A stretch of 64,000 bases of DNA from Pegea sp. RAD2-039 (Eukaryota; Chordata; Thaliacea; Salpida; Salpidae), in NCBI GenBank assembly GCA_034620365.1, contig JAQGEQ010000084.1, positions 1 through 64,000 on the forward strand, written 5' to 3'. Shown in pieces: positions 1 through 63,154 of the stretch (position 1 is the first letter of the stretch; the number at the start of each line of letters is the position of its first letter). A program made the translations under genes and the position numbers. The notes beneath the pieces are model-generated. The model was not told the origin of the DNA. It saw only the letters and a list, made by a program, of their open reading frames with translations, and made no database searches.

Positions 1-83
1 ATATCACTTGGTCGACTAAAGCATTTTTTATACGCTTTCAAAGCTACCAAATAACTTTGTCGCGTTTTATTTTATGTTTGATT

Positions 84-135
84 GAAAAAATTAGGAGATT
101 ACTCCTGATAGACACTTACTTTATTCAAATAGAAT
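84..135 (-). ncRNA. SL RNA gene, unit 1 (AAA-type leader)
   Basis: Leader exon 135 to 120 reads ATTCTATTTGAATAAA; the donor GTAAGTGTC begins at 119. The hairpin AGGAG/CTCCT lies at 93-106 and the Sm-like AATTTTTTC at 84-92. The last exon base is A rather than the canonical G. The true 3' end is unknown and is placed here at the end of the U run. The mature transcript could be a few bases shorter or longer. Confidence 0.75.
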
Positions 136-281
136 AAATTTAAAGGGCTTAGCTACGTTGATATAAACATTAATAATTCTTCAAGCAAAACTTTGGCCAT
201 ATCACTTGGTCGACTAAAGCATTTTTTATACGCTTTCAAAGCTACCAAATAACTTTGTCGCGTTTAATTTTATGTTTGAAT

Positions 282-333
282 GAGAAAAATAGGAGATTAC
301 TCCTGATAGACACTTACCTTATTCAAATAGAAT
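282..333 (-). ncRNA. SL RNA gene, unit 2 (canonical AAG leader)
   Basis: Leader exon 333 to 318 reads ATTCTATTTGAATAAG, identical to the remembered Ciona leader, and is followed by GTAAGTGTC. The hairpin is intact. The Sm-like stretch is altered (TATTTTTCTC instead of AATTTTTTC), which could weaken Sm binding. Confidence 0.8.
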
Positions 334-479
334 AAATTTAAAGGTCTTAGCTACGTTCATATAAACATTAATAACTCTTCAAGCAAAACTTTGGCCATAT
401 CACTTGGTCGACCAAAGCATTTTTTATACGCTTTCAAAGCTACCAAATAACTTTGTCGCGTTTTATTTTATGTTTGATT

Positions 480-531
480 GAAAAAATTAGGAGATTACTC
501 CTGATAGACACTTACTTTATTCAAGTAGAAT
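480..531 (-). ncRNA. SL RNA gene, unit 3 (AAA-type, internal substitution)
   Basis: Leader exon 531 to 516 reads ATTCTACTTGAATAAA, with a C replacing T at position 7 as well as the terminal A. The donor GTAAGTGTC, hairpin and AATTTTTTC site are intact. It is the only unit with a change inside the leader body. Confidence 0.7.
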
Positions 532-677
532 AAATTTAAAGGGCTTAGCTACGTTCATATAAACATTAATAACTCTTCAAGCAAAACTTTGGCCATATCA
601 CTTGGTCGACTAAAGCATTTTTTTTACGCTTTCAAAGCTACCAAATAACTTTGTCGCGTTTTATTTTATGTTTGATT

Positions 678-729
678 GAAAAAATTAGGAGATTACTCCT
701 GATAGACACTTACCTTATTCAAATAGAAT
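678..729 (-). ncRNA. SL RNA gene, unit 4 (canonical AAG leader)
   Basis: Leader exon 729 to 714 is ATTCTATTTGAATAAG, with perfect donor, hairpin and AATTTTTTC Sm-like site. By sequence this is one of the best candidates for an active gene. Confidence 0.82.
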
Positions 730-875
730 AAATTTAAAGGTCTTAGCTACGTTCATATAAACATTAATAACTCTTCAAGCAAAACTTTGGCCATATCACT
801 TGGTCGACCAAAGCATTTTTTATACGCTTTCAAAGCTACCAAATAACTTTGTCGCGTTTTATTTTATGTTTGATT

Positions 876-927
876 GAAAAAATTAGGAGATTACTCCTGA
901 TAGACACTTACTTTATTCAAATAGAAT
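876..927 (-). ncRNA. SL RNA gene, unit 5 (AAA-type leader)
   Basis: Leader exon 927 to 912 reads ATTCTATTTGAATAAA, with intact donor, hairpin and Sm-like site. It has the upstream variant shared by AAA-type units (AAGCCC instead of AAGACC before TTTAAATTT). Confidence 0.75.
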
Positions 928-1073
928 AAATTTAAAGGGCTTAGCTACGTTGATATAAACATTAATAACTCTTCAAGCAAAACTTTGGCCATATCACTTG
1001 GTCGACCAAAGCATTTTTTATACGCTTTCAAAGCTACCAAATAACTTTGTCGCGTTTTATTTTAAGTTTGATT

Positions 1074-1125
1074 GAAAAAATTAGGAGATTACTCCTGATA
1101 GACACTTACTTTATTCAAATAGAAT
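1074..1125 (-). ncRNA. SL RNA gene, unit 6 (AAA-type leader)
   Basis: Leader exon 1125 to 1110 reads ATTCTATTTGAATAAA, with intact donor, hairpin and Sm-like site. It is almost identical to units 1 and 5. Confidence 0.75.
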
Positions 1126-1271
1126 AAATTTAAAGGGCTTAGCTACGTTGATATAAACATTAATAATTCTTCAAGCAAAACTTTGGCCATATCACTTGGT
1201 CGACCAAAGCATTTTTTATACGCTTTCAAAGCTACCAAATAACTTTGTCGCGTTTAAATTTAAGTTTGATT

Positions 1272-1323
1272 GAAAAAAATAGGAGATTACTCCTGATAGA
1301 CACTTACCTTATTCAAATAGAAT
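1272..1323 (-). ncRNA. SL RNA gene, unit 7 (canonical AAG leader)
   Basis: Leader exon 1323 to 1308 is ATTCTATTTGAATAAG with donor GTAAGTGTC. The hairpin is intact. The U run is one base longer (TATTTTTTTC). Confidence 0.8.
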
Positions 1324-1469
1324 AAATTTAAAGGTCTTAGCTACGTTCATATAAACATTAATAACTCTTCAAGCAAAACTTTGGTCATAGCACTTGGTCG
1401 ACTAGAGCATTTTTTATACGCTTTCAAAGCTACCAAATAACTTTGTCGCGTTTAATTTTATGTTTGAAT

Positions 1470-1521
1470 GAGAAAAATAGGAGATTACTCCTGATAGACA
1501 CTTACCTTATTCAAATAGAAT
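1470..1521 (-). ncRNA. SL RNA gene, unit 8 (canonical AAG leader)
   Basis: Leader exon 1521 to 1506 is ATTCTATTTGAATAAG, with donor and hairpin intact. The Sm-like region is the altered TATTTTTCTC type also seen in unit 2. To its right only a truncated unit remains (1585-1697), which lacks a leader exon. Confidence 0.78.
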
Positions 1522-1697
1522 AAATTTAAAGGTCTTAGCTACGTTCATATAAACATTAATAACTCTTCAAGCAAAACTTTGGCCATATCACTTGGTCGAC
1601 CAAAGAGTTTTTTATACGCTTTCAAAGCTACCAAATAACTTTGTCGCGTTTAATTTTATGTTTGAATGAAAAAAATAGGAGATTACTTCTGATGGAC

Positions 1698-5985: not shown

Positions 5986-6985
5986 TAGAGTTTAAAATAG
6001 TAAAAATAATTTTTGTAATTAAAAGATATAAACTTTTTAATAATAATAAAAGTAAATTTTTAGATATCTGCTGAAACTGTAATAATAACAAGCTTCAACA
6101 TGTTTTCTCGTAACTATTTAGAAAAAATTGTTTGCCGTGTTTCCAAACTGTTTTTTATAAATTTTACTAAGAGCTCTTAAATATAGTTTTACGTAAAAGA
6201 TTTTGCTTATATAAATGATATTTTGTTTTAACTCTAATAATGTAGAATAATTATAAATATTAAAAAACATTTATAAAAAGGTATTAGGTTAACTAGAGCC
6301 ACAATTATGGTGATACCCGATCTTTTCGTTCTGTTACAAGTATGCTTTATCTTTCTAGTTATTTATAAATTAAATTTTTCATGTATTCAAACATCATTTT
6401 CTCACATATACATTATAACCGTTCTTTCAATGAAAATAATTTTTAAGTATTTAAGAAAGATTAACATAATGCAAAACGATTAACTATTTTATCAAGTTTA
6501 AGCTCTAAACAGTTTAAATACTTTCTAGCCAAAAAGTTGAAATTATTATTTAATTTCTTATTTATAAAGAGTTGCATAATACTTTAAAGCAAAAAGCCAT
6601 TTTGTATGTTTTCGTATTTTTAAATAACCAAATACAATTGTTTACTTTTATTGTTTGGTTCCTAATTTTTTAAATCTTCAAATTTTAGTGTTTATTTCAA
6701 AACAAATTAATTTTACTTGAAATGATTTCAAAAAAATTGTCGCTTTCAAAGTGAGTCATTTTCAAAAATTAAAAAAAGTCATTTCACGATCTGAAACTTT
6801 GTTTTAAACTGAATAAAATTTTAAGATCTTTTAACTAAAAATGTTTTTAATAATCAAAAAACTTTCGATAAGTTATTATTTAATTACATTACTTGTTAAA
6901 TATCTTACAACTAAAAACTAATTTCAGTGAAATTTTATCAATTTTAAATAAAAAAATAATTTTTTAGACTAATAAACTGCTAAAA
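5986..6985. other. divergent intergenic region IFT57 / UFD1
   Basis: One kilobase of AT-rich sequence between divergent genes, so it should hold both promoters. No TATA or other element stands out from the background. At 6963-6968 TTTTTTAG lies shortly before the UFD1 start and could be a trans-splice acceptor. Confidence 0.4.
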
Positions 6986-7864
6986 ATGTCAACATTTGGT
7001 TTCCAAATTTTTGATGAAAGTGCAAGCGAATTTTCTAACTTTTATAGATGCTTTTCACAAAGCTTTGGAGCTTTGTCTGCAGATAAGCAAGCAGATTTGG
7101 GTAAGGGGGGTAAAATTTTGATGCCGTCATCAGCGTTGGAGAAATTAACAAGTTTGAAAGTTGAGTATCCAATGGTATTTAAACTAACAAACTCAAGTAG
7201 AAACCGTTCTACTCATTGTGGTGTATTAGAATTTACTTCTGATGAAGGTCAGATTATTACCCCGTACTGGATGATGCAGAACTTGCTATTAAATGAAGGT
7301 GATGAGATAAAATTGGAATACTGTAAGTTACCAACTGGTGAATATGTCAAATTTCAACCACAAAGCGCCGAGTTTTTAGATATAAGTGACCCAAAGACAG
7401 TTTTAGAAAGTGCTTTTCGCACATTTGCTTGTTTAACTAAAGGTGATTCAGTTACAATTCATTATAATGAAAAATGTTATGAGTTGATTATTAAAGAATT
7501 AAAACCGGCTGATGCTGTTGTGATTATTGAATGCGATCTTAGTTTTGAGTTTGAAAACCCGGCTGGTATAACTAATTATTGTAACCAGCAACCTCAAACT
7601 TCAAACACTCGACGAAAAAAGGAGCTTGAACAATACCTGAAAGAAAATGGAGCTTTTTCAGCGTTTAGTGGACAAGGTGTTAGATTAGACGGTAGAAGGC
7701 CTAGTATAAAAAGAAAAAGTGAAATTGAAAAAGAAGGAAATTTCTCGCAGAAAGGAGTTCCAAACTTGAGTTGGAGATTTGGACAATTAACTTTTTTAAG
7801 AGAAAATTTGATTCAAAAATCTGATGAGGCTTCAAACAGACCTTTAAAACAGAAAAAAGTTTAA
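6986..7864 (+). CDS. UFD1-like ubiquitin fusion degradation protein, divergent paralogue
   Basis: UFD1 binds NPL4 and the p97/VCP ATPase and delivers ubiquitinated proteins for extraction and degradation. This intronless copy has 292 residues. Seen: the whole N-terminal double-psi barrel with GGKILMPSSAL (41-51), THCGVLEF, YWMMQNLLLNEGD (94-106), KFQPQS, and one p97-binding SHP-like motif FSAFSGQG (224-231). It ends soon after the LTFLRE segment and lacks the second, C-terminal SHP motif found in the paralogue at 13165-14097. Substitutions such as PSSAL for PPSAL show it is the faster-evolving copy. The frame is fully open, so I do not call it a pseudogene. Confidence 0.9.
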   Translation: MSTFGFQIFDESASEFSNFYRCFSQSFGALSADKQADLGKGGKILMPSSALEKLTSLKVEYPMVFKLTNSSRNRSTHCGVLEFTSDEGQIITPYWMMQNLLLNEGDEIKLEYCKLPTGEYVKFQPQSAEFLDISDPKTVLESAFRTFACLTKGDSVTIHYNEKCYELIIKELKPADAVVIIECDLSFEFENPAGITNYCNQQPQTSNTRRKKELEQYLKENGAFSAFSGQGVRLDGRRPSIKRKSEIEKEGNFSQKGVPNLSWRFGQLTFLRENLIQKSDEASNRPLKQKKV

Positions 7865-8312: not shown

Positions 8313-11300
8313 TCATTTTGAATAAAAAGATTTCATAAACTCAAAGCTCGACTCTTTCAATTTTCGCATATTTTTTCCAATCTCAAACACAACTTCTTCA
8401 TCTGGAGGAACAGCATCCACAATCATGTCTTCCTCTTCTTCTTCTAGCTCACTACAATGAAGAGATTAAGAAAGCGAGTTGGAGGAGGATCACTCACCTT
8501 TCTCCATCGTTTAGTTCGGAGACTTGATCCATCAATAACGAGGTGATAAATTTATCAGCTAAAGTCTTTACAGGAGGAAGAACATGTGAGGGACATTCTA
8601 GGATCGCTCGGACGGTTTCCTGGGAAGATCAGATCTTTAATTGAAAAAATTTCAGATTCAGACTGAAACAAACTTCAACAGTTCGACGGCGTGGGATTTT
8701 ACTGAGAGTAAAATCTTCATCAATAGATTTAGGAGGGTTTAGAAGAAGAGATATAGGAGTCTTCAACTCATCAACACTCATTGCGATTTTTACAACTGAT
8801 TTACTCTCATTGAAGCATTGTGCTTGATGTCGAGTACAAATTTTATGAACAATCTGTAGATGATCAGATCTTAACAAGAGGTTGATCACGTGACTGCCTC
8901 ACCATGTCATCAGAAACGATATAGAGTTGAGATCTCTTCATCCAATCGACTTCTTTGTTGACTTCAGGATAAAAAGAAGCAGAAGCGACGCTGAAGTCCA
9001 TTTGTTGTTCAAATAAAGAAGCACAATTATCAGGTTTGAATATTTTCACTGAAAATTGTAAATATTTGTAAGTTTCTCGTAGTAATGATGGCATCATAAG
9101 AATTGTGACGTTAACTGCACTTCACTTCCGGTACAAAGCCAACTTATTAATTAATAATTTGATTTATTTCAGAGATAGAGCAGTATGAAGTTGAGAGGAG
9201 ATAGATGGGTTTGCTTTCTGGTTTTTCTTGTTGAAGTCGTAATGACAAAAGACTTTAAGGAATTTATGACTGACGAGGTTTTGTGATCAATTTTTATTTG
9301 TTTTTTTTTTCAGTTTGTTTTTCGCTACAGGCGCAGTGGTTGCCATGGCAAGAATGTGTCGATCATGATAAATGCTACAGAAAAAGAATGAACAAGTGTA
9401 GCAACAGCAGTAAACCTTTAAACGAGTCATGTGGCTGGCAATACAACTCAATTTATCAACAAGTTGTGATTGGCTGCCACTCATGCCCTAGTGGTGGTTG
9501 GGTGAGTTAATGATCAACCGTTTCAAGATGGTCCTGAAGTTGTTGTTGAAGGTTGAAGAGAGAGGATGGTCTTTATGTGAATCAAAAGACTGCAAGTCAA
9601 CTTCCAAGATGCGTTCGTTTGTTTGTAAGGATTACCGGAGCTGTTATTTGGAAGAAACTGGGTTTTGCGTCCAGTATAAAACCTGTAATGGGACATATGA
9701 GGATTGGACGATGATTAAAAACTGCTCAAGTTGTCATGGAGACGACTCTCAAGTTTGTGAAGGACTCTGTGGGTTGATTTTTGAAGGCGTTTTTTACAGA
9801 TTTTTCAAAGGAAATGTGTTTATGATGGACAAGTAAGTAGCCTGTGTGGAGAAAATGATATTTCTGAACATTTGAAGCTGACAAAATCAGTAATTTGCAA
9901 ACCAAATGATTGTAAAGGTAAGTGGAAAGAAATTCAATGTCTAAAATTTGTTGAAAGAAAACTGTTTGAAAAAGTTGAAGCTGTATGGGATGTTTGGGAA
10001 GATTGTAGATGTGAAGATGGGATGTTGAAGCCTCTAAAGACACGCAGATGTCTTTCTAATTGTAAGAAGAAAGTGATGGAGAAAGCAGAGTGCGAAGGAA
10101 GCTGTGGATCGACCAGGACATCAAGATTAACAACCACTGAAAGAGCAAATGATGAAGAGGCAGTAGCAAGTGAACAAACAACTGAACAGACACGCGGACA
10201 GACAAGCGGAAAAACAAACGCAGAAACAACAGAAACTAAACCAAATGAAAGTAGAAAACAAAGAAATGATGACGACAACATCAACCAAATGTTATGTCCT
10301 AAAAATAAATGTGTAATGACAGCGATAATAGCTGCCATCATCACGGCTATAACTGAAACATTCACTTGTTGCTTGTTGCTCGCTTTTTACAAGAGACAGA
10401 AGAAGAAGAAGAAGAAAGGTGAATTAGAAATGAATTATTTAGCGAGGAATCATGAAGCAAGTGTTAGTTGAAAATCTGTTTCTGTTTTTTTTATACTTTT
10501 TTATTTTTCTGATTTTTATTTATTGACGTTTAATAAAAAACAATTTGAAAAACTTACTTCTATTCTTTTGATCAAAAATCGCCATATTATCTGAGATATC
10601 ATCACACAAGAGTAGCTTCGGCGGTGATATCAGCTCCATGCTCCACATCATATGTCCAGTGATGACATCCCAACAGTGGTAGGAAGATGTGGTACAAGTG
10701 ACCAGGTACCGGTCACATTTACTCCGTCCAAACTTCAAATCTCTACAAAAGAAATTTTTACCGAAAATCGATTGAAATTCAAGCAACTCACAAAACTGAT
10801 GAAGAGTGAAAAAGAATTCTTGAAGTTTGATGATCAAATGTTGCTGAGTCTCTCAAACAAACTTCTTCTTTAAAAGCTAACCCAACAAGGGAACCATCTT
10901 GTGAAAAATGGACGGCAGCACAGGGGTACTTTTTGTGAGAGATCGCCCCAATACAAGACCATCCTGACAATCAAAAGATTCAGAAGATTTTAGAGATGAT
11001 GAAAGATACCTTCGGAGTTTGTCCAGACTTTTGCTAGCCCGTCTTCAGATGCAGTTATACATAAATCTTCAAATGGATGAAAGCAGATTGAGAGTATGTC
11101 TTGGTTGTTGTGAGGAGAAGATATCAAAGTGTCAAGATTCCATCTTCAAAAGAAGATTTTTAAGTGATTCTGAGATGAGATTCCAATTTTGGATTCTTAC
11201 TGTTTAGAAGTTTCTTCAAAAAACCAAAACTTCAGTTTCTGATTCCTTTTTTTAATTGGATTAAATTCGATGGTTGCCATGAAAACTTCTACGGAAAAAT

Positions 11301-13164: not shown

Positions 13165-14097
13165 TCAATTTCTTCTTTTTCTCAAAACCTTCCCTTCTCC
13201 TTTAAAAGCCTCAAATAATGGTTCCTCATTTTCCTCAACTTTACCAGGCGGTGGACTATTTCGGATAAAAGCCAATTTTCCAAACTTCCAATTTAGGTTC
13301 GGGACACCCCTTGGTACACATTTCAAGTCAACGTCACCTGATTCTCCTTTCAAATACTTTTTTTTTCCATCTAATCGATAACCAATTCCACTAAACGCTG
13401 AAAAGCTCATTTGATTTTTCATATACTCTTCCATTTGCTGTCTATTTTCATAACTTCCCATCGCCATTTCTTCAGCTTCTTTAACTTGAGGGACGTTTTT
13501 TGGGTATTCATACCCGATTGGTGTTTCAAAATCAAGGTTTAAGTCACACTCAACGATGCTAACAGCATCTGCAGGCTTCAATTCTTTCACACAAAGATCA
13601 TATTGAGTGTTATTATAGTGAATTGCAACTATATCACCTTTTGTAAGACATGAAAAATTACGAAGAGCATTTTCAAGAACAGCTTTAGGATTACTAATCT
13701 CAAGAAAGAGGGACGATTGTGGTTGAAACTTTGCATATGTAGCAATTGGTAAGGTACAGTTTTCAACATGTAGCTTGTCACCCTCATTTAATAATAGGTT
13801 TTGCATCATCCAATAAGGTAGGTAGACAACTCCTTCATCAGCTACAAACTCTAATACCCCACAATGAGTTTGATAATTATTCATTTTTACATTTGTAAGT
13901 TTAAACATCATAGGATAAGTAATATGAAGACGAGTTAGTTGGTCTAATGCTGAAGGTGGCATTAAAATTTTTCCACCTTTCTTTACATCTTCACTTTTTG
14001 TGTCACTCAATGCACCAAAACTGCTCGAGTAACATTTGTAAGTATTCATAAACTTACGTTGAAGAAAATGGTTTTGAAGAAAATCTAAACCAAGCAT
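13165..14097 (-). CDS. UFD1: ubiquitin fusion degradation protein 1, conserved copy
   Basis: Cofactor of p97/VCP with NPL4 in ER-associated and nuclear protein extraction. Intronless, 310 residues (human 307) from the ATG at 14097; the open frame continues upstream, but only this Met fits the family start. Seen: GGKILMPPSALDQL (41-54), LEFVADEG, YWMMQNLLL, FLEISNPKAVLENALRNF, the first SHP motif FSAFSGIG (232-239), LDGKKK, VPNLNWKFGKLAFIRN and the second SHP motif FEAFKGEG (295-302). It is therefore the copy with a full set of binding motifs. Its stop lies 185 bases from the WDR75 ATG on the same strand, an operon-like spacing. Confidence 0.95.
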   Translation of the reverse strand: MLGLDFLQNHFLQRKFMNTYKCYSSSFGALSDTKSEDVKKGGKILMPPSALDQLTRLHITYPMMFKLTNVKMNNYQTHCGVLEFVADEGVVYLPYWMMQNLLLNEGDKLHVENCTLPIATYAKFQPQSSLFLEISNPKAVLENALRNFSCLTKGDIVAIHYNNTQYDLCVKELKPADAVSIVECDLNLDFETPIGYEYPKNVPQVKEAEEMAMGSYENRQQMEEYMKNQMSFSAFSGIGYRLDGKKKYLKGESGDVDLKCVPRGVPNLNWKFGKLAFIRNSPPPGKVEENEEPLFEAFKGEGKVLRKRRN

Positions 14098-15222
14098 GTT
14101 TATCAGCTTAAAGAGAATAGAAACTGGAAGAAGTTTTATGATTAATGTTTGTTTTAGATTTCTCTTTTTTAATGTAAAAATTATTAAAATTATTATTAAA
14201 CATAAATTGAAGATTATCAATTAATTATTTAAATTTATTTAATATAAATTACTAAAATAAATATAATTATATAAACTCAAATATCAAAAGATATTTTGCC
14301 TAAAAACATTTTTTGTATATAAATCTTATATTTTAATATTTATAAATTTTGCATATACAGACCAACTACAAAAAGTTATAAAGTATAAGAAAAATAAAAT
14401 CTTCTCATTTATCACCTACAGAACTACTTATAAGCATCAATTTTTCTATAAAATGCTACAAAAATATATCAAAAAAACTAAAATTATTTTAAAATATTTA
14501 GTTGATAGATTATTAATACAAAAATTATATTTCAATTGTGAAAGTTAGTTGTTATAAGAAAATTTAATATAAAGTTTATAAAACTTATTTTTTCAATTAA
14601 ATAAAATTTTATTATAGAATAAAAAAACCTACCAAAGTTGTAAAATATTTTTTAAGATATAAAATAAATCAGAGTTTCATTATTTCTATTCTAGATTATT
14701 ATAATTTATTTTCTGTTTTAAATTTCCAAAAGTTAACTGAAAATTTAAAGTAAAAATTAGATAAAACTTTTTGTGAAAAATAAAAAGTTACTTAAATCTA
14801 GAATCTATAAAATGATTATCCTTACAAAGTTAAGAATTGAAGAACATGAATAAAATAATTTCTGTATTCAAATTGAAAACTATTACTTTGAACTTAAAAC
14901 TAAAAAATTTAACAAATATAAATAATATTTAATATTATAAAACTAAATATATAAAAATATAAATATAACTTTACATTTATAAAGCTTAAAACATGAATAA
15001 AATTTAGACCAAAAAATGTCTGAAACCTAGAACCTGGCATACGATAATCTCGGAAAAGGGGATGTCCAAAAAAAAGCAGAAATATTTTAAGTTTTTATAT
15101 TTCAACTATAAAACACTTAATAATTTAAAAAATATTTCAATTATTAAAATCTTGTTCAAATCTTGTTCAAATCTTTTCTATCTAGATTTTATTTTGTTAT
15201 TTTACTTTCATGGCTGCAGATG

Positions 15223-15665: not shown

Positions 15666-18292
15666 TTAGCTAAGAACCACGTTACTGTGTAAAAATTCCT
15701 CATCAGTTGGCGAATGCTGAATTTCATGAGCGTCTTTCCGCACTGATCGCTTCTTTTTACGTCGACAAAAACAAAAAAAGCAAAAAATAAAAGATTCGAG
15801 AAAACTGATAAAAGCTATCAACAAGATTGTGATAAGTGTACAACTAAACACGTGATGGCAGTCTTGATGAACAGCATCACGACAAGGAACTCGGCAATTG
15901 TTGTTTGAGTCAAAAGTGCATTCATCTGAACAACTTTCAATTTCCAACTTTTGATTATTACAGTTTGTCAAACACTTTCTTTGATGAACTAACTTGCCTT
16001 CTAGACAAAAACATTCCGTCCAATTACTCCAGGCTTAAGATAAAAATAAACCTGATTAAGGAGCAGCACAATATCTCTTAGTTTGAATTTCAGTTACCTT
16101 TAGCAGTCAACAAGGATGTACTTCTTGAACAATCACTTGGTTTACATTTAGTTGATTCAACAATTGAGTTTTTATCTTCTGAAGCGTTAATCTTACAGAT
16201 TTTATTTAAAGTCCCGCCATAGAGACAATGTTTTCTTTTAATCTAAACCAATTATTTTTATTCAATTACTTTTTAAGAAAGGCATTTTCTAAACCTTTGT
16301 GTCTCCATTTGAACAAGTTGTACAGTTTTGTATCACTTCCCAATCACTGTAAGAGCCGTTACATGTTTCATAAGGAGAACACATCATAGTTTCTTTCATT
16401 TGGCAATAATCAGTTGCTTTACAGTACACCATTCTTGTTTTTTCATAAGTTTTACACCCTTTTGATTCACAACTAGGCCATTTACTCTCTGTCTAAATTA
16501 ATTTTTTATCCATTTATTTAAGCGTAGCAAGTGTTACGACAAAAATTTTAATTACAGAATATCAATTTGTTTTTAAACATAATAAAGACGTCTAAATTTA
16601 TTCTATTTGAATAAGGTAAGTGTCCATTAGGAGTAATCTCCTATTTTTTTCAATCAAACGTAAAATGAAACGCGACAAAGTTATTCGGTAGCTTTGAAAG
16701 CGTATAAAAAATGCTTTAGTCGCCTAAGTGATATGGCCAAAGTTTTGCTTGAAGAGTTATTAATGTTTATATGAACGTAGCCAAGACCTTTAAATTTATT
16801 CTATTTGAATAAGGTAAGTGTCTATCAGGACTAATCTCCTATCTTTTTCAATCAAACATAAAATGAAACGCGACAAAATTATTAAAAACTCTAAAAGTGT
16901 GTAAAAGTCACTATAGTCACCCATGTGTTAATTATGCAACACGTGGCTGCGAGTTAGAGCTTCTGCAGCTCTTATAGCAAACAAAAACCAAATATTACGA
17001 GCGAAGAGATAATTGAAAAGTTTTAGTATCACTATAGACAAATTACATGTAATTTATAATAAATAAATAAAAGATAAAAAGATAGATTTTATATTTCTTC
17101 TTTGTATATATTTTTGTGAAACTAAATATATTCTCCTTTTTTTTAATTTTTTATTAATAATTGTGTTTTTTTAACCTAATTTTTTAAACTTGTTTTTCTC
17201 TGTTGTCATATTGTTTGATTTTTTATATGCATCTATGAGTAAAATGAATAAACTCAAGTAAATATTTACCCAGATCCCACTTGGGCAGCTGAAACAACCA
17301 AACAATTCTTGTATATATTTGCCTTTATAATTAACGCCACATGAGATATTTATTGATATATTCGTCTGTGAAGTACATTTATGAAACCTTTTTTGCCAAC
17401 AAATTTCTTCCTCATCAGTCACTGAAAAATCGTAAAGTTCTTCACATTCAGTCCAGTTTAGCCAGTTTGACTAAAATGTAGAAAAAAGTTGAAAGAAATA
17501 AATGATTATTTCATCAACATTTGATAATCAAGTCTTTAATCATATAATTTTTTAAATCAATAAATAGATTAATTGATAAACTTTTTAGACATTATTTTTG
17601 CGAATGTATGTTAACGGGAGGTGCTCTCTTCAAACACCCTTCTTTGCATTTACTGAAATAAATTAATTTATTTTTACTAAAACACGGTAGTATACTTGAT
17701 AATCAAACTGATTTATGACTGATTTATCTTATTAATTTAACATGTTTTATTTTTTTAAAGACTTTTCTTTAAGCTTAATTTTAGATGAATTAAAAATTGC
17801 ACAGGAAATTAATTAGTTCTTTACAAACATCAATACAACAGTTTAAGTCTGACTAAAAGAAATTCTCACATAACTTTTTGGGTTTTAAAACATTCTTTGA
17901 AAGTTTTATTACAAATTAGTTTACTAAAAACTTGTGTATACAAACTAATCAAAAAGTTTGTAGTAAAATTAGTTGTAAGCTCCAAAAATTTATTCTAATG
18001 ACAACTTTTTTAAAAATAAATTTAAAAAATTTCCAGTTTAAAGAAAATGAAAAAAGTTAAAGGAAAGAAGAAAAAAATCCTGAAATATTATAACTAGAAT
18101 TATTTTTTAAAGACATGACAGAGAATAACTAAATTTATTTAAAATTAATTTTAGACTTTTATAAGTAAAACAACTTACCTCATTCGTCAGAAAGTTTCTA
18201 TTGATTTCAGATTCCTGGTTTTTGATGCATTTTATAAAAACAAATAAAATAAAACAGATCTCTAAAAAGTGAAAATTCTTCATTAAGAACAT
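15666..18292 (-). CDS. Cys-rich type I membrane protein with TSP1-like motifs, copy B
   Basis: Paralogue of the gene at 9185-10471. Five exons: 18292-18179, 17470-17270, 16492-16295, 16242-16098, 16033-15666, giving 341 residues with the same phases (0,0,0,1). Seen: an N-terminal hydrophobic signal segment, WLNWTEC and WSNWTEC in the positions of copy A's WLPWQEC and WDVWEDC, the shared CNGSYSDWEVIQNC block (CNGTYEDWTMIKNC in copy A), a single transmembrane helix near the C terminus and a basic tail. The stalk is much shorter than in copy A. The 777-base second intron holds two SL RNA units in antisense. The family is unrecognised; surface receptor or adhesion protein is only an inference. 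Confidence 0.78.
16600..16651 (+). ncRNA. SL RNA gene copy inside intron of the Cys-rich gene
   Basis: Leader ATTCTATTTGAATAAG at 16600-16615 is followed by GTAAGTGTCC, an intact AGGAG-TAAT-CTCCT hairpin and TATTTTTTTC. The surrounding sequence matches the array unit through the GCTTTGAAAGCG and TTGCTTGAAGAG segments. Orientation is opposite to the array at 1-1697. By sequence it could be functional. Confidence 0.72.
16798..16849 (+). ncRNA. second SL RNA copy, probably degenerate
   Basis: Leader ATTCTATTTGAATAAG at 16798-16813 begins exactly 198 bases after the previous one. GTAAGTGTC is intact, but the hairpin is broken (AGGAC against CTCCT) and the U run is interrupted (TATCTTTTTC). Homology fades after about 16885. 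Possibly a dead copy. Confidence 0.6.
16940..17020. repeat. dispersed repeat fragment (partner at 15223-15275)
   Basis: Shares CAGCTCTTATAGCAAACAAA and the following AACCAAAT...GATAATTGAAAAG with 15226-15280, allowing substitutions. It lies in the same intron as the two SL RNA copies. Confidence 0.4.
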
Positions 18293-19702
18293 TTTATTAT
18301 TAATACAGTTTGAAATTACTGGTATATCTAAAACGGATGTTGCAATCCCACATAATAGAAAAAGTTAATAGAAAAATATTTGTAAAGCAAATTGCTTAGA
18401 TATTTGTTTTAATCCATAAACTGCTAAATTTAAGTATGCCTGAGACTAAAACCTGAAAAATAAAACTAATTGTTAATTAGTTAGTTAATTAATTAACTTT
18501 ATTACGGTAATTAATTAGTTAATGCAAAAAAATAGAATAAACAAAAGATATGTTGTTGAGAATTGTTGATCAGAAGATGAAGATCAGAATACAAATATCA
18601 TAAGATGAAGATCAGAATACAAAGATCAGAAGACGAAGATCAGAAGATAAAGACCAGAAGATAAAGATCAAGAGATGAAGATCAGAAGATAAGGATTAAA
18701 AGATGAAGATCAGAAGATAAGGATTAAAAGATGAAGATCAGAAGATGAAGATTAGATCATGAAGTTACCATTTAAAAACCATTTCTGCTGCTGGTGGATT
18801 ATTATAACAAAGAGCTGTAAGAGCTTCTGTGGATTTAATTTCGATTATTTTCCTAGAAGGCATCATTAAAACACAAAGAGAATGTAATTTCCATTTGGTT
18901 TAAACCAATTAATAATAAATTGATAAATCTATAATATAGTTGCTTCACCCAATCTCATTAACATCCTAAAATTTGTCTCTTTTGACTTAGTTTTGCTGGA
19001 CAACAAGTTTAGCTTCTTATTGATCTTCAAGTAGAAATATAAAATAATTTCACAAAGTTGTTATTAGTTAGATAAATAGAACAAAAACCTTCGAGCTTCA
19101 GACTTTTCTAAAACACTATTTTGTTTTCTGAAGATTTGTCCCTAAAGGTACATTTAAATTTTTTTTATTTGTTTTTAATTTTTCTCCGGGTAAAAAAGAA
19201 TTAAAAAATTGAGAAGAAATAGAAGATGGAAGACCTTCTACAAATATTTATCAAATTTGATTTGTTTTTAAAAAAACGTAAAACTTTTTTTTTTACATTT
19301 CAAAATTTCAGCTAAAAAGATTTTCAAAAGAAAAAAATTCAATTTTTTGTTTTTTATTTATTTTAAGCGCAAAAAAATATTGAATAAAAATTTTTTACAA
19401 ATAAATTGCAAACCGTAAAAGAAGGAAGAAGAAGTGGTAAAGATCTTTTTGTTAATCTTCAGAAAGATATTTGATAAAAAAAATTATCAAATTTGTTGAA
19501 TCATTAAAAAGACTTGAAGTTTTGAAAGCTTCAAAAGTAACAAATTTTTGATTTATTAGTTTGTTAAGAGCTTTATTAGAAAAATATTCAAAAAAATTAT
19601 CTAAAATTAAAGAAATAATCGGAAAATTTTGACTATGTTGGTTTTTTATAGATCAAAACCAACTGACAATAAAATAAATAATTTATTTCGTCGAAAACTT
19701 GC
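18293..19702. other. intergenic with a simple-sequence stretch
   Basis: Between the Cys-rich gene and ZIP9. It holds the GATCAGAAGAT-type minisatellite described separately, TTAATTAG palindromes near 18475-18520 and long A/T runs. No gene found. Confidence 0.5.
18567..18770 (+). repeat. minisatellite of AGATGAAGATCAGA units
   Basis: Degenerate tandem copies of GATGAAGATCAGAA. Part of it has a longer period of about 29 bases (AGATAAGGATTAAA alternating with AGATGAAGATCAG). Purine-rich on the plus strand. Confidence 0.75.
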
Positions 19703-31865: not shown

Positions 31866-33335
31866 ATTTAAAATATCCAAATTTCTCTTCAAAAAACTCT
31901 GGATTTGAAAAGAAAGTTTTAATAAAATAATTTTAAAAGAAAATGAATATAAAATACAAACAGAATCATCAATATTTTGAAGTTTGTAATAAAATATCTT
32001 TCAATAAACAATTTCTACCTCCTTATTCTTCATTGTTTTAAAAACTGTTTAAACTTTAGTTTAAAAAATAATTCTTTTATATACACATATAAGTTGTTTA
32101 TTTGGATTTTATAAACAGTTTTATAGTTCAAAGTTAAACTTTTAAATGTTGCTTTTTATAGATCTCTTTAATACCTTTCTAGTAATAATAAAAAGTAATT
32201 CTAAAACTTATAGAGCAGTGATTAAAGCTTTAAAAGTTTTTGTGAAAAATTCAATGATATGATAAAGTACTTCCTTAAATATATTTTTAAAGAAACGAAT
32301 ATTTTTCAACTACATTTAGAACAAAATAGTCAAAGAGGAAAAGCAACTGGCAGGTTGAAAGCTACTGCTTTAGAAGAATAGCTTAGAAAAACTTTATTTT
32401 TATTATCTACAAACTGATTTTATCAAATCATTAAAAAGTTGCTAAGTTTTTATTCATTTATTTTCAATAGAAACTATAAATACAACTGAAAAAATATCTG
32501 TAAAAATAATAACTTTTCTAACAGTTTCTTTAAACATTTCTTTATTCATTTTGTTAACAAAATAACCTTCTAAATGAAATCATTTATGCAATAATTGTCA
32601 AATTCATTCAAGTTTTATTTAGTTTTCTGATTTATTAAATGCAAGTTAAAAACAACTAATACTTTTATATTAAAAAAGTGTTTTTAATCATAATGGTAAG
32701 CAAATAAAACATTGTTATAAAATATATTTCCAATAAATAGTTGTGCAAATATAAAACTAATTATTTAGCATCTTTCAGGTTTCAAACATATTGTTGATGA
32801 TATTTATAAAAGTAAACAATTGTTTTCATTAATATTAAGTTTGTAATAAATTTACTGTTCATAAGTTATGATATTATAGATTTACAAAAAACCAACAAAA
32901 TAATAAAAAAGTTTGAAAAGATAAACGCATTTTATATTTTATTTATTACAAAAAACGCGAAGAAGGATTAAAGATAAAGATAGCACCACTCACTAACACA
33001 CATTCTCACAAATAATATAATTAAGATAGAAATATAGAATAAAAGCACATCTTAATTTAAATATATCTTTTATATAAACAAATTTAATTAACTAAAAGTA
33101 AAATTCTTATAATAGAAAATATGTTTACTAACAGTATAAAAAACATAATGAAGTTTTTATCTAAATTTATGTTAAACAGGCAACAAGAATTTAAAACTTT
33201 TCGACTTTATTTCTTATGCATTAACTTTAAAGTCAGTTAGAACATTTCTGTAAAAAATATTGTTACAATTGTTTATAAATAATTGTCTAAAGTAATAATT
33301 TTGTAAATAAATCTGATTTTTCTGAAGGACATAAG
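31866..33335. other. AT-rich region, possibly intronic
   Basis: No exon that I can support. If the coding pieces at 33336-33936 belong to a longer plus-strand gene, its earlier exons may lie here, but I could not find them. Confidence 0.4.
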
Positions 33336-45304: not shown

Positions 45305-47925
45305 ATGAACCAAGTTAAGAGAGTATTTAGAAGTAAATTAGTTTGGAGAAATGTTCATAGAACTTTTAGTTTTAACCAGAAAAGTACAAATCAACATTTA
45401 AATATTCTCCCATCAGTCGAAGAAGCTTTAAAAAGTAAGAAGTCTGCTGTGGTTGCTTTGGAAAGTACAATAATCACTCATGGAATGCCTTACCCAGAAA
45501 ACATCCAGTAGGTCTTCATCCAAAAATATCCCAAACTAAAACCTGTGTTGCTAGGACTGCTTTAGAAGTAGAAGAAGTTGTCCGTTTCCAAGGCGCTGTC
45601 CCAGCTACTATTGGAGTTGTGGATGGGACAATCCATATAGGTCTTTCAATCTCATTTTCTTCCATCTCTTCAAAAATCTACTTTTAGGGATGGACAAATC
45701 CACGATGCACAAAATGGCTTCTTGCGAAAATGCCCTCAAACTATCCAGACATAATCTAGCCGAGGCGGTCTCCAAAACCCTCAGTGGTGGTACAACAGTG
45801 GCTGCGACCATGATGCTTGCCAAACAGTAACCAACTCATGTGTCCCATTTACCTCATTGTGACCATTATAAACTTCAGATGTGGCATAGAAGTGTTTGTG
45901 ACCGGTGGTATCGGAGGTGTCCACAAAGGTGGTCACCATTCCATGGACATCAGTTGTGACCTTCGCGAACTGGGTCGCAATGACGTCACAGTCGTCTGTG
46001 CTGGAGTCAAATCGATCTTGGACATCGGCAGGACACTTGAGTACATGGTAACTTGACAGACTGGTCAGCATCGCGTTAAATGGTTACTATGGCAGGAAAC
46101 GGAAGGTGTGTCCGTCGCCACTTTCGGCTCCGACATCTTTCCCGCCTTCTTCACTCCTTCTAGTGGATTCAAGTCTCCTATTCGTCTCGATGACGTAGAA
46201 CAAGTGACGTCATTCATTCGCGCGCATAAGAACATCGGAGTTGGTAGTGGAGTACTTCTAGCTGTCCCAGTACCAGATCATCTGTCCACATCTGCCCAAG
46301 TGGTCCAAGAAGCGACGGATCAAAGTCTTCGCGAAGCTAGCGCGCAAAATATCACCGGAAATGACGTCACACCTTTCGTCTTGCGTCGTGTCAATGACAT
46401 CACAAAGGGAGCTTCGTTGCAGACTAGTAAGAAGTCATTGAGATGATCAAATCTTTTTCATCCAGTCTTCATAGATATTTCTCTCATCAAACACAATGCT
46501 AAGATCGGATCTTTGATCGCTGTCAAGATGAACAAAGATGAGAAGAGATGGAAACGTCCGGTGAGTGATCCTCAGCCAATCCTCATCATCAAACCAACCG
46601 TTTAAAATCAGGTGGTTATAGGTGGAAGTAACGTGGATGTGATGACTGTTTCAAATGATGAAGAAATCATCAAATTTGGTGCTTCAAATCGAGCTTCAAT
46701 CAGTCTTTCGTCTGGTGGCGTCGGTCGAAATATAGCAGGTGGAATCCTGCTTCAAATATCTGATTTAATTTGTAAATTTTAAGAGGGCTTATGGAGGTTG
46801 GAGCAAGACCCCTTTTTCATCTCAGCTGTCGGATGTGACGTATCGGGAGACTTTATATTCAATCAACTTCCAGACATGGTTTTAATCAATTAATTTGCTT
46901 TTATGTTTAAAAAAATTTGTTTTTTTGGTGAAATTAGGATTTAGGAGGTATTTTGAGGTCGAAAGATTATAAAACAGGGATGTACATCACTACTTGTAGT
47001 CGAGATGGGGAGGTTTATCTGGGTATGGGGGATCAAAACATCCATTCTATGTAAGATCTTCATCATTACAACTGATCATTGAAGCTGGATCTTTTAGAAT
47101 CAATATAGATTTGATTAAATCTCATGAAGCTACTATCAAATCAGCAGCTGTTGTTTGTATGGATGGAAATCTTCCAGCAGAAACCATCAAATACATCATG
47201 GAATTGTGTTGGAGGTTTAAAATCCGGTTTTCAAGCATTTGTTTGAGAGTTTCAATAATTTGTAGGAATGAAATCAAAGTTTTATTTGAACCTTGTGATA
47301 TCTTGAAAGCACCATCTGCTTATAAATCTGGTACTCAAGATTGTTCTTTTACTTTTGCAACTCCAAATCTGGCAGAGTTAAAAGCAATTTACGAAGAGAT
47401 GACAAAATCACTATCCCCGCTAATTGATGAAAGCAAGATAAATATTTCGCCAAAAATTTGATAAAATTAAATTCTTTATCATTTAGATGAGTTAAAAAGT
47501 TCAAAAAATAACAAATCTTTTCATGGAATTGTTTCTATGTGCGAGGAGCTTTCAGATTCAACTGAAAATATGATTGTAACTCTTGGCAGCAACGGAATTT
47601 TGCTTGTCAACAAACAAGTAAGTGAAAATAACAAAGTTTTCATCAACTTTAAAATCTCTTCCAGAAAAAACTCCATTTTCCACTCACATCGATGCCGAAC
47701 TGGGACTGGCTTCAACAACCAGTAGTGAACGTATCTGGTGCAGGAGATGGTTTTACTGCTGGTTTAGTTGCTGGTCTTCTAAATGATATGCAAATTGACC
47801 AGTGTATTAATGTTGGTTTGACTGTTGCCCAGAAGAATTTGCGTTCTTCAAAAACTGTGTCCCGAGAAATCTCTGCTCTTGATCTAGAATCTTCTAAATC
47901 ATGTTGGAAGTATCGTGAAATCTAG
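45305..47925 (+). CDS. fused pseudouridine-5'-phosphate glycosidase and PfkB-type pseudouridine kinase
   Basis: The kinase half phosphorylates pseudouridine and the glycosidase half splits the product into uracil and ribose-5-phosphate. Thirteen exons join in phase to 677 residues: 45305-45507, 45555-45640, 45688-45826, 45879-46047, 46096-46426, 46466-46560, 46612-46738, 46784-46878, 46938-47050, 47098-47214, 47266-47432, 47487-47617, 47665-47925. Glycosidase (about 30-340): [50 protein letters not shown]. Kinase (about 342-677): [26 protein letters not shown] and the catalytic [12 protein letters not shown]. The Arg-rich, acid-free N terminus suggests mitochondrial import. Intron 11 uses a GC donor (A|GCAAG). 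Confidence 0.93.
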
Positions 47926-61655: not shown

Positions 61656-63154
61656 ATATATCTGAAATACAATTCAAATTCTTAGTTAAAGCGTGCACCA
61701 GTTTTTACAGTCTTTCCTTAGAAACTTTTCAAGTTACTTATTGCACATTTTTGCATCCACATAACATGTTTTATAATTTGTTGCTGCCAAGTCATCGTTA
61801 TTTTATAACATTGTAACACAGAACTTTCTGAAAACTTTCTTACCATGTAGACAAACATTGATAAATGACGGAAAGTTTTAAAGTTGGTTGTCATCCAGAA
61901 CAAATTTAAGCTTTTTCAAGTTTTCTTATCCAGCATTTTTTGCTGGACAAGAAGACTGCTCTTTCGCTTGATTGATCAATTGTTATTTAATTAGTTAGTC
62001 CATGTTACAAAAGTAAAGTTAAAATTTTAGTGTTCAATTTTTTTTTATAATGTTACAACTATATAATTGTTTAAAAGATATAACTATGTAGTATTAACGG
62101 TTTATCGAAATCTTATCGATATTCTATTTTTATTAATTTAGTTTTAAAAACTCTTCAAAAATAAATTAATTGTGCAGAATCTTTTTCAACTATGATAAAA
62201 GAATTAATTTTGTTATACTATAAAATCATAATTTTATTTTTAAATTTTTTCAACTTAAAAACTGAATTTTCAAAGTATACACTTTTGATAAGAACCAAAT
62301 TTGTCAACTTTGGCCTCATGCTTAATTATTTTTGGCAAAAGTAAATACAATAATGCCATCAAAGGTTTTGTGTAAATTTACTTTAGAGGTTTGTAGTCCC
62401 ATTTTTTTACAAGATTGAGTACATTTTATTATTTTATTTCTTACTATTTGTATTTCACTTTCAAAACTATATTTGTAAAAATATAATTTTAATTTAAAAA
62501 GTTCATAATTATTTATTTTTAATTTTTTACAAAACTATTATATTTGAATTAGTAATTTGAGATGTTAATTTACTTTTTATTAAGTAACTACAAAGTTATT
62601 TCTTTTAATTGTCTTGCAAGACTTTATTTTTTTAATATTATTACTAATATCCTAACAACTTTATGTTTAATTTTTATTTATATTCAAAAATATAATTTTG
62701 AGCAATCATTTTTATTATTTTAATTAAACTTAGTATAAAACATCTTTTTAATGAATTAATAATAACTTAATATTAAGGCTATCCAACTGAATTTACTTAA
62801 AAACTTGGTTTAATTTTTTTGCTACCAAAAGTGTTAAGGTAATAAAAAAATTATTTTAAAAAAGTTTTCAGAATAAAAATGTAATAAACCTATTTTTGTG
62901 TTTTTAGTGAAACTATTTTTAGATATGAAAAACTAACTAAAGATTTACTTACTTAAATTTGCATTTTTAGCTTAATTATTTTTACCTTAAAGACAGAAAT
63001 TAAGTTTAAAACGATTTTAGAGTTCATATTTTAAGTATTCAGTGCACAATTATTTAACAAATTAATTATTTTCATTCTAAAATATTTATTTTCTACATTA
63101 TTTAATTTTAATCAACAATTTTCAATAAATACATTTTTATACAGAATTTTGATC

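Follow-up and report, generated by a model that had tools for sequence, protein, structure and literature searches.

The first 1,697 bases of the window, by which we mean the whole 64,000-nucleotide stretch that was analysed, hold what is almost certainly a cluster of tandemly repeated spliced-leader (SL) RNA genes of a tunicate. The window opens contig C11, of which it covers 64 kb, in a genome of 105.7 Mb and 387 contigs, and the array (1..1697, minus strand) consists of a 198-base unit with 8 complete leaders and a truncated ninth unit at its right end. A preliminary description of this DNA had proposed an SL RNA locus of a tunicate, and the proposal is supported by the anatomy of the units, a block of conserved positions, a genome-wide gene family, leader relics on a LINE and the IFT57 gene of the window. 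It had also equated the 16-base leader with the Ciona SL, and this agrees with the available part of PMC7986045. Ciona is already established to have and use this leader, so the array adds a further member to a known kind; what makes the case a variant is the presence of two leader classes and the record of leaders on LINE copies. We tentatively propose, as one possible reading that we do not yet favour outright, that two leaders (a 16-nt Ciona-type leader and a 15-nt leader A[C/T]CTATTTGAATAAG) come from separate arrays with a common intron part, that a CR1-like LINE depends on them for its 5' end, and that wherever the element lands, trans-splicing onto acceptors in its head adds a leader, so that leaders stack over successive rounds and the genome records leader, acceptor and first base.

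The array and the anatomy of its units

The exact 198-base period given in the preliminary description was recovered by Tandem Repeats Finder (period 198, 8.6 copies, 96% matches, 0% indels at 1-1697) and by the leader-to-leader spacing, which is 198 in 7/7 intervals. The leaders lie on the minus strand at 120-135, 318-333, 516-531, 714-729, 912-927, 1110-1125, 1308-1323 and 1506-1521; four of the eight are exact, three end in AAA, and the one at 516-531 (ATTCTACTTGAATAAA) has the AAA ending and one further change. The ninth unit, which extends up to 1697, is truncated before its leader. Because the array starts at base 1 of the contig, it may be longer than seen. When up to 2 mismatches were allowed, the window gave 11 leader matches, of which 8 belong to the array, 2 are at 16600 and 16798, and 1 is at 62537; 0.55 are expected by chance, and the maximum in 100 shuffles is 3. 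The pair corresponds to two putative SL RNA genes on the plus strand, opposite to the array: one at 16600..16659, with a diverged upstream region, and one at 16798..16857, with one base changed beside the hairpin loop. The match at 62537 has 2 mismatches and no donor.

In a representative unit, read along the minus strand, the leader exon ATTCTATTTGAATAAG (318..333) is followed by the splice donor GTAAGTGTC (309..317), a hairpin of 5 bp, AGGAG-TAAT-CTCCT (291..304), and the U-run ATTTTTCTC (282..290), a candidate Sm site, while the upstream (promoter) region from -1 to -100 occupies 334..433. This order of minus-strand leader, donor, hairpin and U-run had been claimed before, and in the array the donor GTAAGTGTC indeed stands directly after the leader in 8/8 units and the 14-base hairpin is exact in 8/8. 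The U-run varies, being AATTTTTTC in 5/8, ATTTTTCTC in 2/8 and ATTTTTTTC in 1/8. Within the stretches of the genome that were fetched, 48 units with a Ciona-type leader (at most 3 mismatches) were read, 35 on contig C4, 10 on C11 (the window contains all of these) and single units on C70, C194 and C216. The leader is identical to the Ciona SL in 39 of the 48, including 4/8 in the window array, and the donor, with its GU after the leader, is present in 48/48. The hairpin is exact in 41/48, its five pairs can form in 43/48, and it is lost in the C194 unit. A U-rich run was recognised by eye in 47/48; it ends in C and has no closing G, while the usual Sm site ends in G. The U-run also differs from the Ciona Sm motif AGCUUUGG. 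Sm-type stretches were picked out by eye in the genome's own snRNAs as well (AATTTCTTA in U1, AGTTTTTGG in U2), and that of U1 is also unusual. The hairpin appears in 4/4 predicted single-RNA folds. The fold energies are no better than those of shuffles (z -0.7 to -1.0), and RNA folding was therefore dropped as proof of an SL RNA. No family of Rfam was matched at gathering scores, though perhaps none exists for such an RNA, and bases 1-400, when searched as DNA against plasmid records, gave no match.

Conservation was evaluated from 15 pairwise comparisons of six units, one per locus and with both leader classes included. The mean identity is 100% at RNA positions 17-29 and 96% at positions 30-55, compared with 82-86% in the 100 bases upstream and 76% at positions 56-98 downstream. 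The RNA block is thus better conserved than its flanks, which marks out a transcript of roughly 46-60 nt. Changes in the leader of 4/8 window units and the homogenisation of the arrays could be taken to mean that the repeat is a non-transcribed satellite with leader-like sequence, made up of dead SL genes amplified in tandem. We consider this improbable in view of the conserved RNA block, of the donor in 48/48 units and of the abundance of Ciona-type leaders as relics in LINE insertions, some of them recent. At least some members of the family must be expressed, this particular array perhaps among them.

The upstream region is fairly conserved among the SL units and lacks the element of the U1 and U2 genes. 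For the latter, 19 matches to U1 (18 over the cut-off) and 19 to U2 (all over it) were obtained (loci L078-L081 and L122-L141), and most of the upstream stretches read have a CCCACAAAC-type element in common. The U1/U2 genes show a clear PSE-like element near -59. Of 20 sequences fetched 19 were distinct, and when each was left out in turn the element was refound in 18/19. A TATA-like stretch near -33 is weaker. In the SL genes, the U1/U2 PSE-like element gave no match above shuffles in 9/9 units tested, and the TATA-like match at the expected place is not significant. A snRNA promoter common to SL and U1/U2 genes was therefore rejected, and the result counts slightly against the SL reading; a U1/U2-type promoter is not an established mark of tunicate SL genes.

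The tunicate origin of the DNA is well supported by the identities of the IFT57 protein encoded in the window. Its best named relatives are those of Ciona intestinalis (66%), C. savignyi (66%), Clavelina (63%) and Phallusia (62%), and the other named relatives among the 120 listed reach at most 58%. With a protein of JGI origin the identity is 94%. In the tree, which has a midpoint root only, the window protein groups with nine others (100/100), apart from the named ascidians; a pelagic group such as Thaliacea would be no more than a guess. Mitochondrial COX1 gave no match in the assembly.

Some other features of the window were noted. Two UFD1-like genes in opposite orientation, at 6968-7864 (plus strand) and 13165-14220 (minus strand), are 51% identical over 300 aligned positions, and near them are two Cys-rich membrane-type frames, at 9785-10471 (plus) and 15666-16034 (minus), which are alike by eye and for which no Pfam family was found at the default cut-off. 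Within 46057-47461 (plus), an indigoidine synthase A-like frame (E 1.7e-31) precedes one that is PfkB-like by eye and gave no Pfam match; the two are perhaps, as we assume, a gene of pseudouridine catabolism. A 14-base tandem repeat, GATCAGAAGATGAA, occurs in 14 copies at 18568-18764.

Two leader classes in the gene family

The pattern of leader plus donor was found at 45 places genome-wide and its reversed control at 0. The pattern of donor plus hairpin (at most 3 mismatches) was found at 173 places genome-wide, again with 0 for the control, and many of these are spaced by about 198 bases on several contigs. Among the 100 matches listed of the 173, further units form arrays on contigs C87, C159, C173, C272 and C358 and occur singly on C90 and C165. 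Reading 52 of these extra units gave TACCTATTTGAATAAG in 28, TATCTATTTGAATAAG in 20 and variants in 4, with a Ciona-type leader in 0/52; the second leader class is mostly A[C/T]CTATTTGAATAAG. The single leader assumed in the preliminary description was thus not borne out, all 52 of the further units read carrying another one. About 74 of the 173 places lie outside the units read. Several arrays reach contig ends, so the counts for the family are lower bounds.

The ACC form of the second class, ACCTATTTGAATAAG, has 55 copies (control 1), 53 in arrays and 2 elsewhere, and the ATC form, ATCTATTTGAATAAG, has 69 (control 2), 44-47 of them in arrays as counted from the listing. The genes of the second class therefore amount to 97-100 exact array copies as against 45 of the Ciona type, a difference of about twofold. 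The AAA variant of the leader has 45 exact copies (control 2), 6 in arrays, and by eye it heads some LINE copies (L165, L170, L172 and L174, among 20 regions fetched). It was rejected as a third working leader, since a single mutation explains its copies equally well.

Outside the arrays, 20 regions with the second class were read (2 ACC and 18 ATC), and a few scattered ATC places lie beyond them. They contain 21 leader places, 12 of which lead into the LINE and 9 do not. Both scattered ACC leaders begin at the A and stand at the heads of LINE copies. Loss of one base from the Ciona type could account for the scattered ATC leaders if these are taken by themselves; this could hardly apply to the ACC leaders, but there are only two of them. 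We infer from these sequences that the second leader has 15 nt and is also trans-spliced. Such a small scattered fraction, 2/55 ACC-type copies and far fewer than for the Ciona type, would also be expected if the A[C/T]CTATTTGAATAAG class consisted of decayed pseudogene arrays and not of a working SL. We regard that as doubtful, although it is the alternative we take most seriously, because both scattered ACC copies and 12/21 scattered places of the class lead into LINEs, and because the RNA body after the leader matches that of the first class. The proportions among genes and relics are opposite. About 220-235 relics are of the Ciona type, compared with about a dozen of the second class among those read; with fewer genes and more relics, the Ciona-type leader is the minority gene class and the commoner relic. 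In the tentative reading given at the outset, this skew of the relic record, more than tenfold towards the class that has the smaller number of genes, would point to a difference between the classes in germ-line expression or in targets.

Leaders at the heads of a CR1-like LINE

The exact leader, searched with an ARG pattern, occurs 274 times genome-wide (reversed control 1). SL genes account for 39 of these, and about 235 are scattered and without a donor. We read 103 scattered sites, which were not drawn at random and were picked by list order, by tandem leaders and by a next base of T or GTT. At 97 of them the leader runs into one family of LINE, and the other 6 comprise 3 in another repeat and 3 others. 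Among the 97 LINE-type sites, 76 are outermost leaders, 66 of them with distinct flanks, and 21 are preceded by a leader-like stretch, i.e. they are inner leaders or degraded stacks. No copy of a host gene with a leader was recognised among the 103 sites, which were not picked to find retrogenes. By eye, a second repeat family (L064, L066, L143, L176 and L179) has a leader copy after a leader-like tail; in L064 and L066 the shared sequence extends upstream as well, and so the leader there is not at the element's end.

Two full copies of the LINE are 99.4% identical over 4.4 kb; read from stop to stop, their two frames are 334 and 1024-1050 residues long. The second frame contains the domains RVT_1 (E 5.7e-39) and Exo_endo_phos_2 (E 3.2e-11), and the first a PHD-like stretch at E 0.014, below the Pfam cut-off. 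We call the element CR1-like from its domain order and the PHD-like stretch in ORF1, which are features of that group, and use the clade name provisionally. The two full copies are homologous from the first base of the leader onwards, to within one base, and the flanks before it are unrelated. In many pairs the homology starts at or a few bases from that base, again with unrelated sequence before. Relative to longer LINE copies, the leader is fused at differing inner points. Leader relics at LINE heads, fused at varying points, imply that the RNA intermediates began with the leader, and from the sequences they look like retroposed trans-spliced RNA. At 33/66 outermost sites with distinct flanks, at least two leaders lie in the first 85 bases, and this holds for 27/60 once the loci chosen because of their tandem leaders are set aside; in L036, two leaders stand end to end.

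That 97/103 of the leader sites read outside arrays run into the LINE might be explained the other way round, with the leader being the LINE's own 5' end and the arrays derived from the LINE. We hold this to be extremely unlikely. The array units have a donor and a hairpin, which the LINE heads read do not, and the only match of the window to the LINE is a short 3'-end fragment at 32931-33013 (80% over 84 bases). Furthermore, the position of the leader relative to the LINE body varies, and two leader classes with matching gene arrays are both found at LINE heads.

The joins themselves were compared with longer relatives as 14-base stretches with the leader itself excluded; 20 of the 103 sites were dropped as flank duplicates, and 40 of the remaining 83 have no longer relative. 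Among the 12 informative distinct joins, 9 follow AG in most longer relatives, although seven of these nine begin with GTT, as selected by the search pattern, and in one of the nine, the TGC join, AG is present in only 3/5 relatives. The three distinct joins without AG come after GT (two) and GG (one). Counted by site, AG is found in at least some longer relatives at 22/43 and in none at 21/43; 20 of the 21 non-AG sites are TTTCAGG joins, whose relatives mostly carry a leader at that very place, and those sites therefore say little. As a background, AG makes up 4.8% of the dinucleotides in that stretch of one LINE copy, and 2/7 GTT sites in one LINE head follow AG. Joining of the leader to other RNAs at AG acceptors is in this way indicated, indirectly, by the LINE heads; such joins would be expected if the leader were trans-spliced onto acceptor AGs and the product then reverse-transcribed, and a fixed 5' end of the LINE would not give them so variable a position. 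The array had also been invoked to explain splice acceptors before the start codons of genes in this DNA. An acceptor was found there in 4/6 genes, compared with a background of 0.23 (p = 0.03), which keeps the idea as suggestive only, the genes being too few.

The joins also bear on how old the record is. If the LINE had received its leaders in a single ancient trans-splicing event, or in a few, and they had been copied passively ever since, they would say little on present splicing, and some of the data can be read so: a second leader and a TTTCAGGTTATAGG segment are common to many copies, and 3/12 distinct joins and 21/43 sites are not after AG. On the other hand, copies with the same body sequence have the leader at several different AGs, L036 has one leader directly after another, and the two leader classes are both represented; several trans-splicing events are needed to produce these. 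The passive reading thus seems to us unlikely.

For repeated trans-splicing, the following course may be pictured. Each unit would be transcribed from the A of ATTCTATTTGAATAAG, on the minus strand in the array. In the resulting RNA, roughly 46-60 nt long, the leader exon of 16 nt would be followed by the GU donor, the short hairpin and the U-run, and the U-run could bind Sm proteins to form a small ribonucleoprotein. The spliceosome would then join the leader to acceptor AGs of other transcripts as a common first exon. Transcription of these units, Sm binding and use on ordinary mRNAs are what we infer. LINE RNAs would be among the targets, and the likely gain for the LINE would be a proper 5' end whatever promoter lies upstream. 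Where an acceptor before an old leader is used, leaders would stack; where the AG at the old leader's end is used, the leader would be renewed.

Comparison with known systems

The leader here is the same as in Ciona intestinalis, where the SL gene unit has 264 bp, and the unit here has 198 bases. For Ciona savignyi, Yeats 2010 is said to have described two SL gene classes with an identical leader and different intron parts. The genome studied here likewise has two gene classes, but these have a common intron part and different leaders. In the available parts of the sources, the Ciona SL has the same 16-nt leader, a short RNA and a highly repetitive gene family (PMC7986045), the RNA being 46 nt long (PMC7986045, PMC11155486) and the genes clustered in about 670 copies (PMC6836712); for the SL RNA genes of Ciona intestinalis, PMC7986045 cites Vandenberghe 2001 and Yeats 2010. 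The same available text of PMC7986045 describes one SL in Ciona, with the Sm motif AGCUUUGG, and a single SL in Oikopleura as well. When compared with that account of Ciona, the second class here outnumbers the first, and the U-run follows the hairpin. Specialisation of leader classes is, as far as this text goes, a feature of nematodes that has not been observed elsewhere (PMC7986045).

Relic leaders from retroposed trans-spliced RNA, also in tandem, are described for dinoflagellate retrogenes in the part available of PMC12014239. Those relics are on retrocopies of host genes in protists, while here they are on a LINE in a chordate. In Hydra, 29.7-30.9% of transposon Iso-Seq reads carry the SL according to the sections available of PMC12220107. 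There the leaders on transposon transcripts were shown in RNA, and here they are known from DNA; genomic leader stacks are not mentioned in those sections of PMC12220107, whereas here the leaders are stacked on the LINE. In the literature searched, mostly without subscription papers, we found neither stacked leaders on a tunicate LINE nor two leader sequences in one tunicate.

The interest of this locus lies less in the array than in what the DNA records of how leaders were used. Among animals, SL trans-splicing has a patchy distribution, and how it is maintained is a matter of debate. A LINE record of this kind in a chordate genome would make the first base, the choice of acceptor and the use of leader classes readable from DNA alone, and two leaders with one intron part would allow asking, in a relative of the vertebrates, whether the classes have separate targets.
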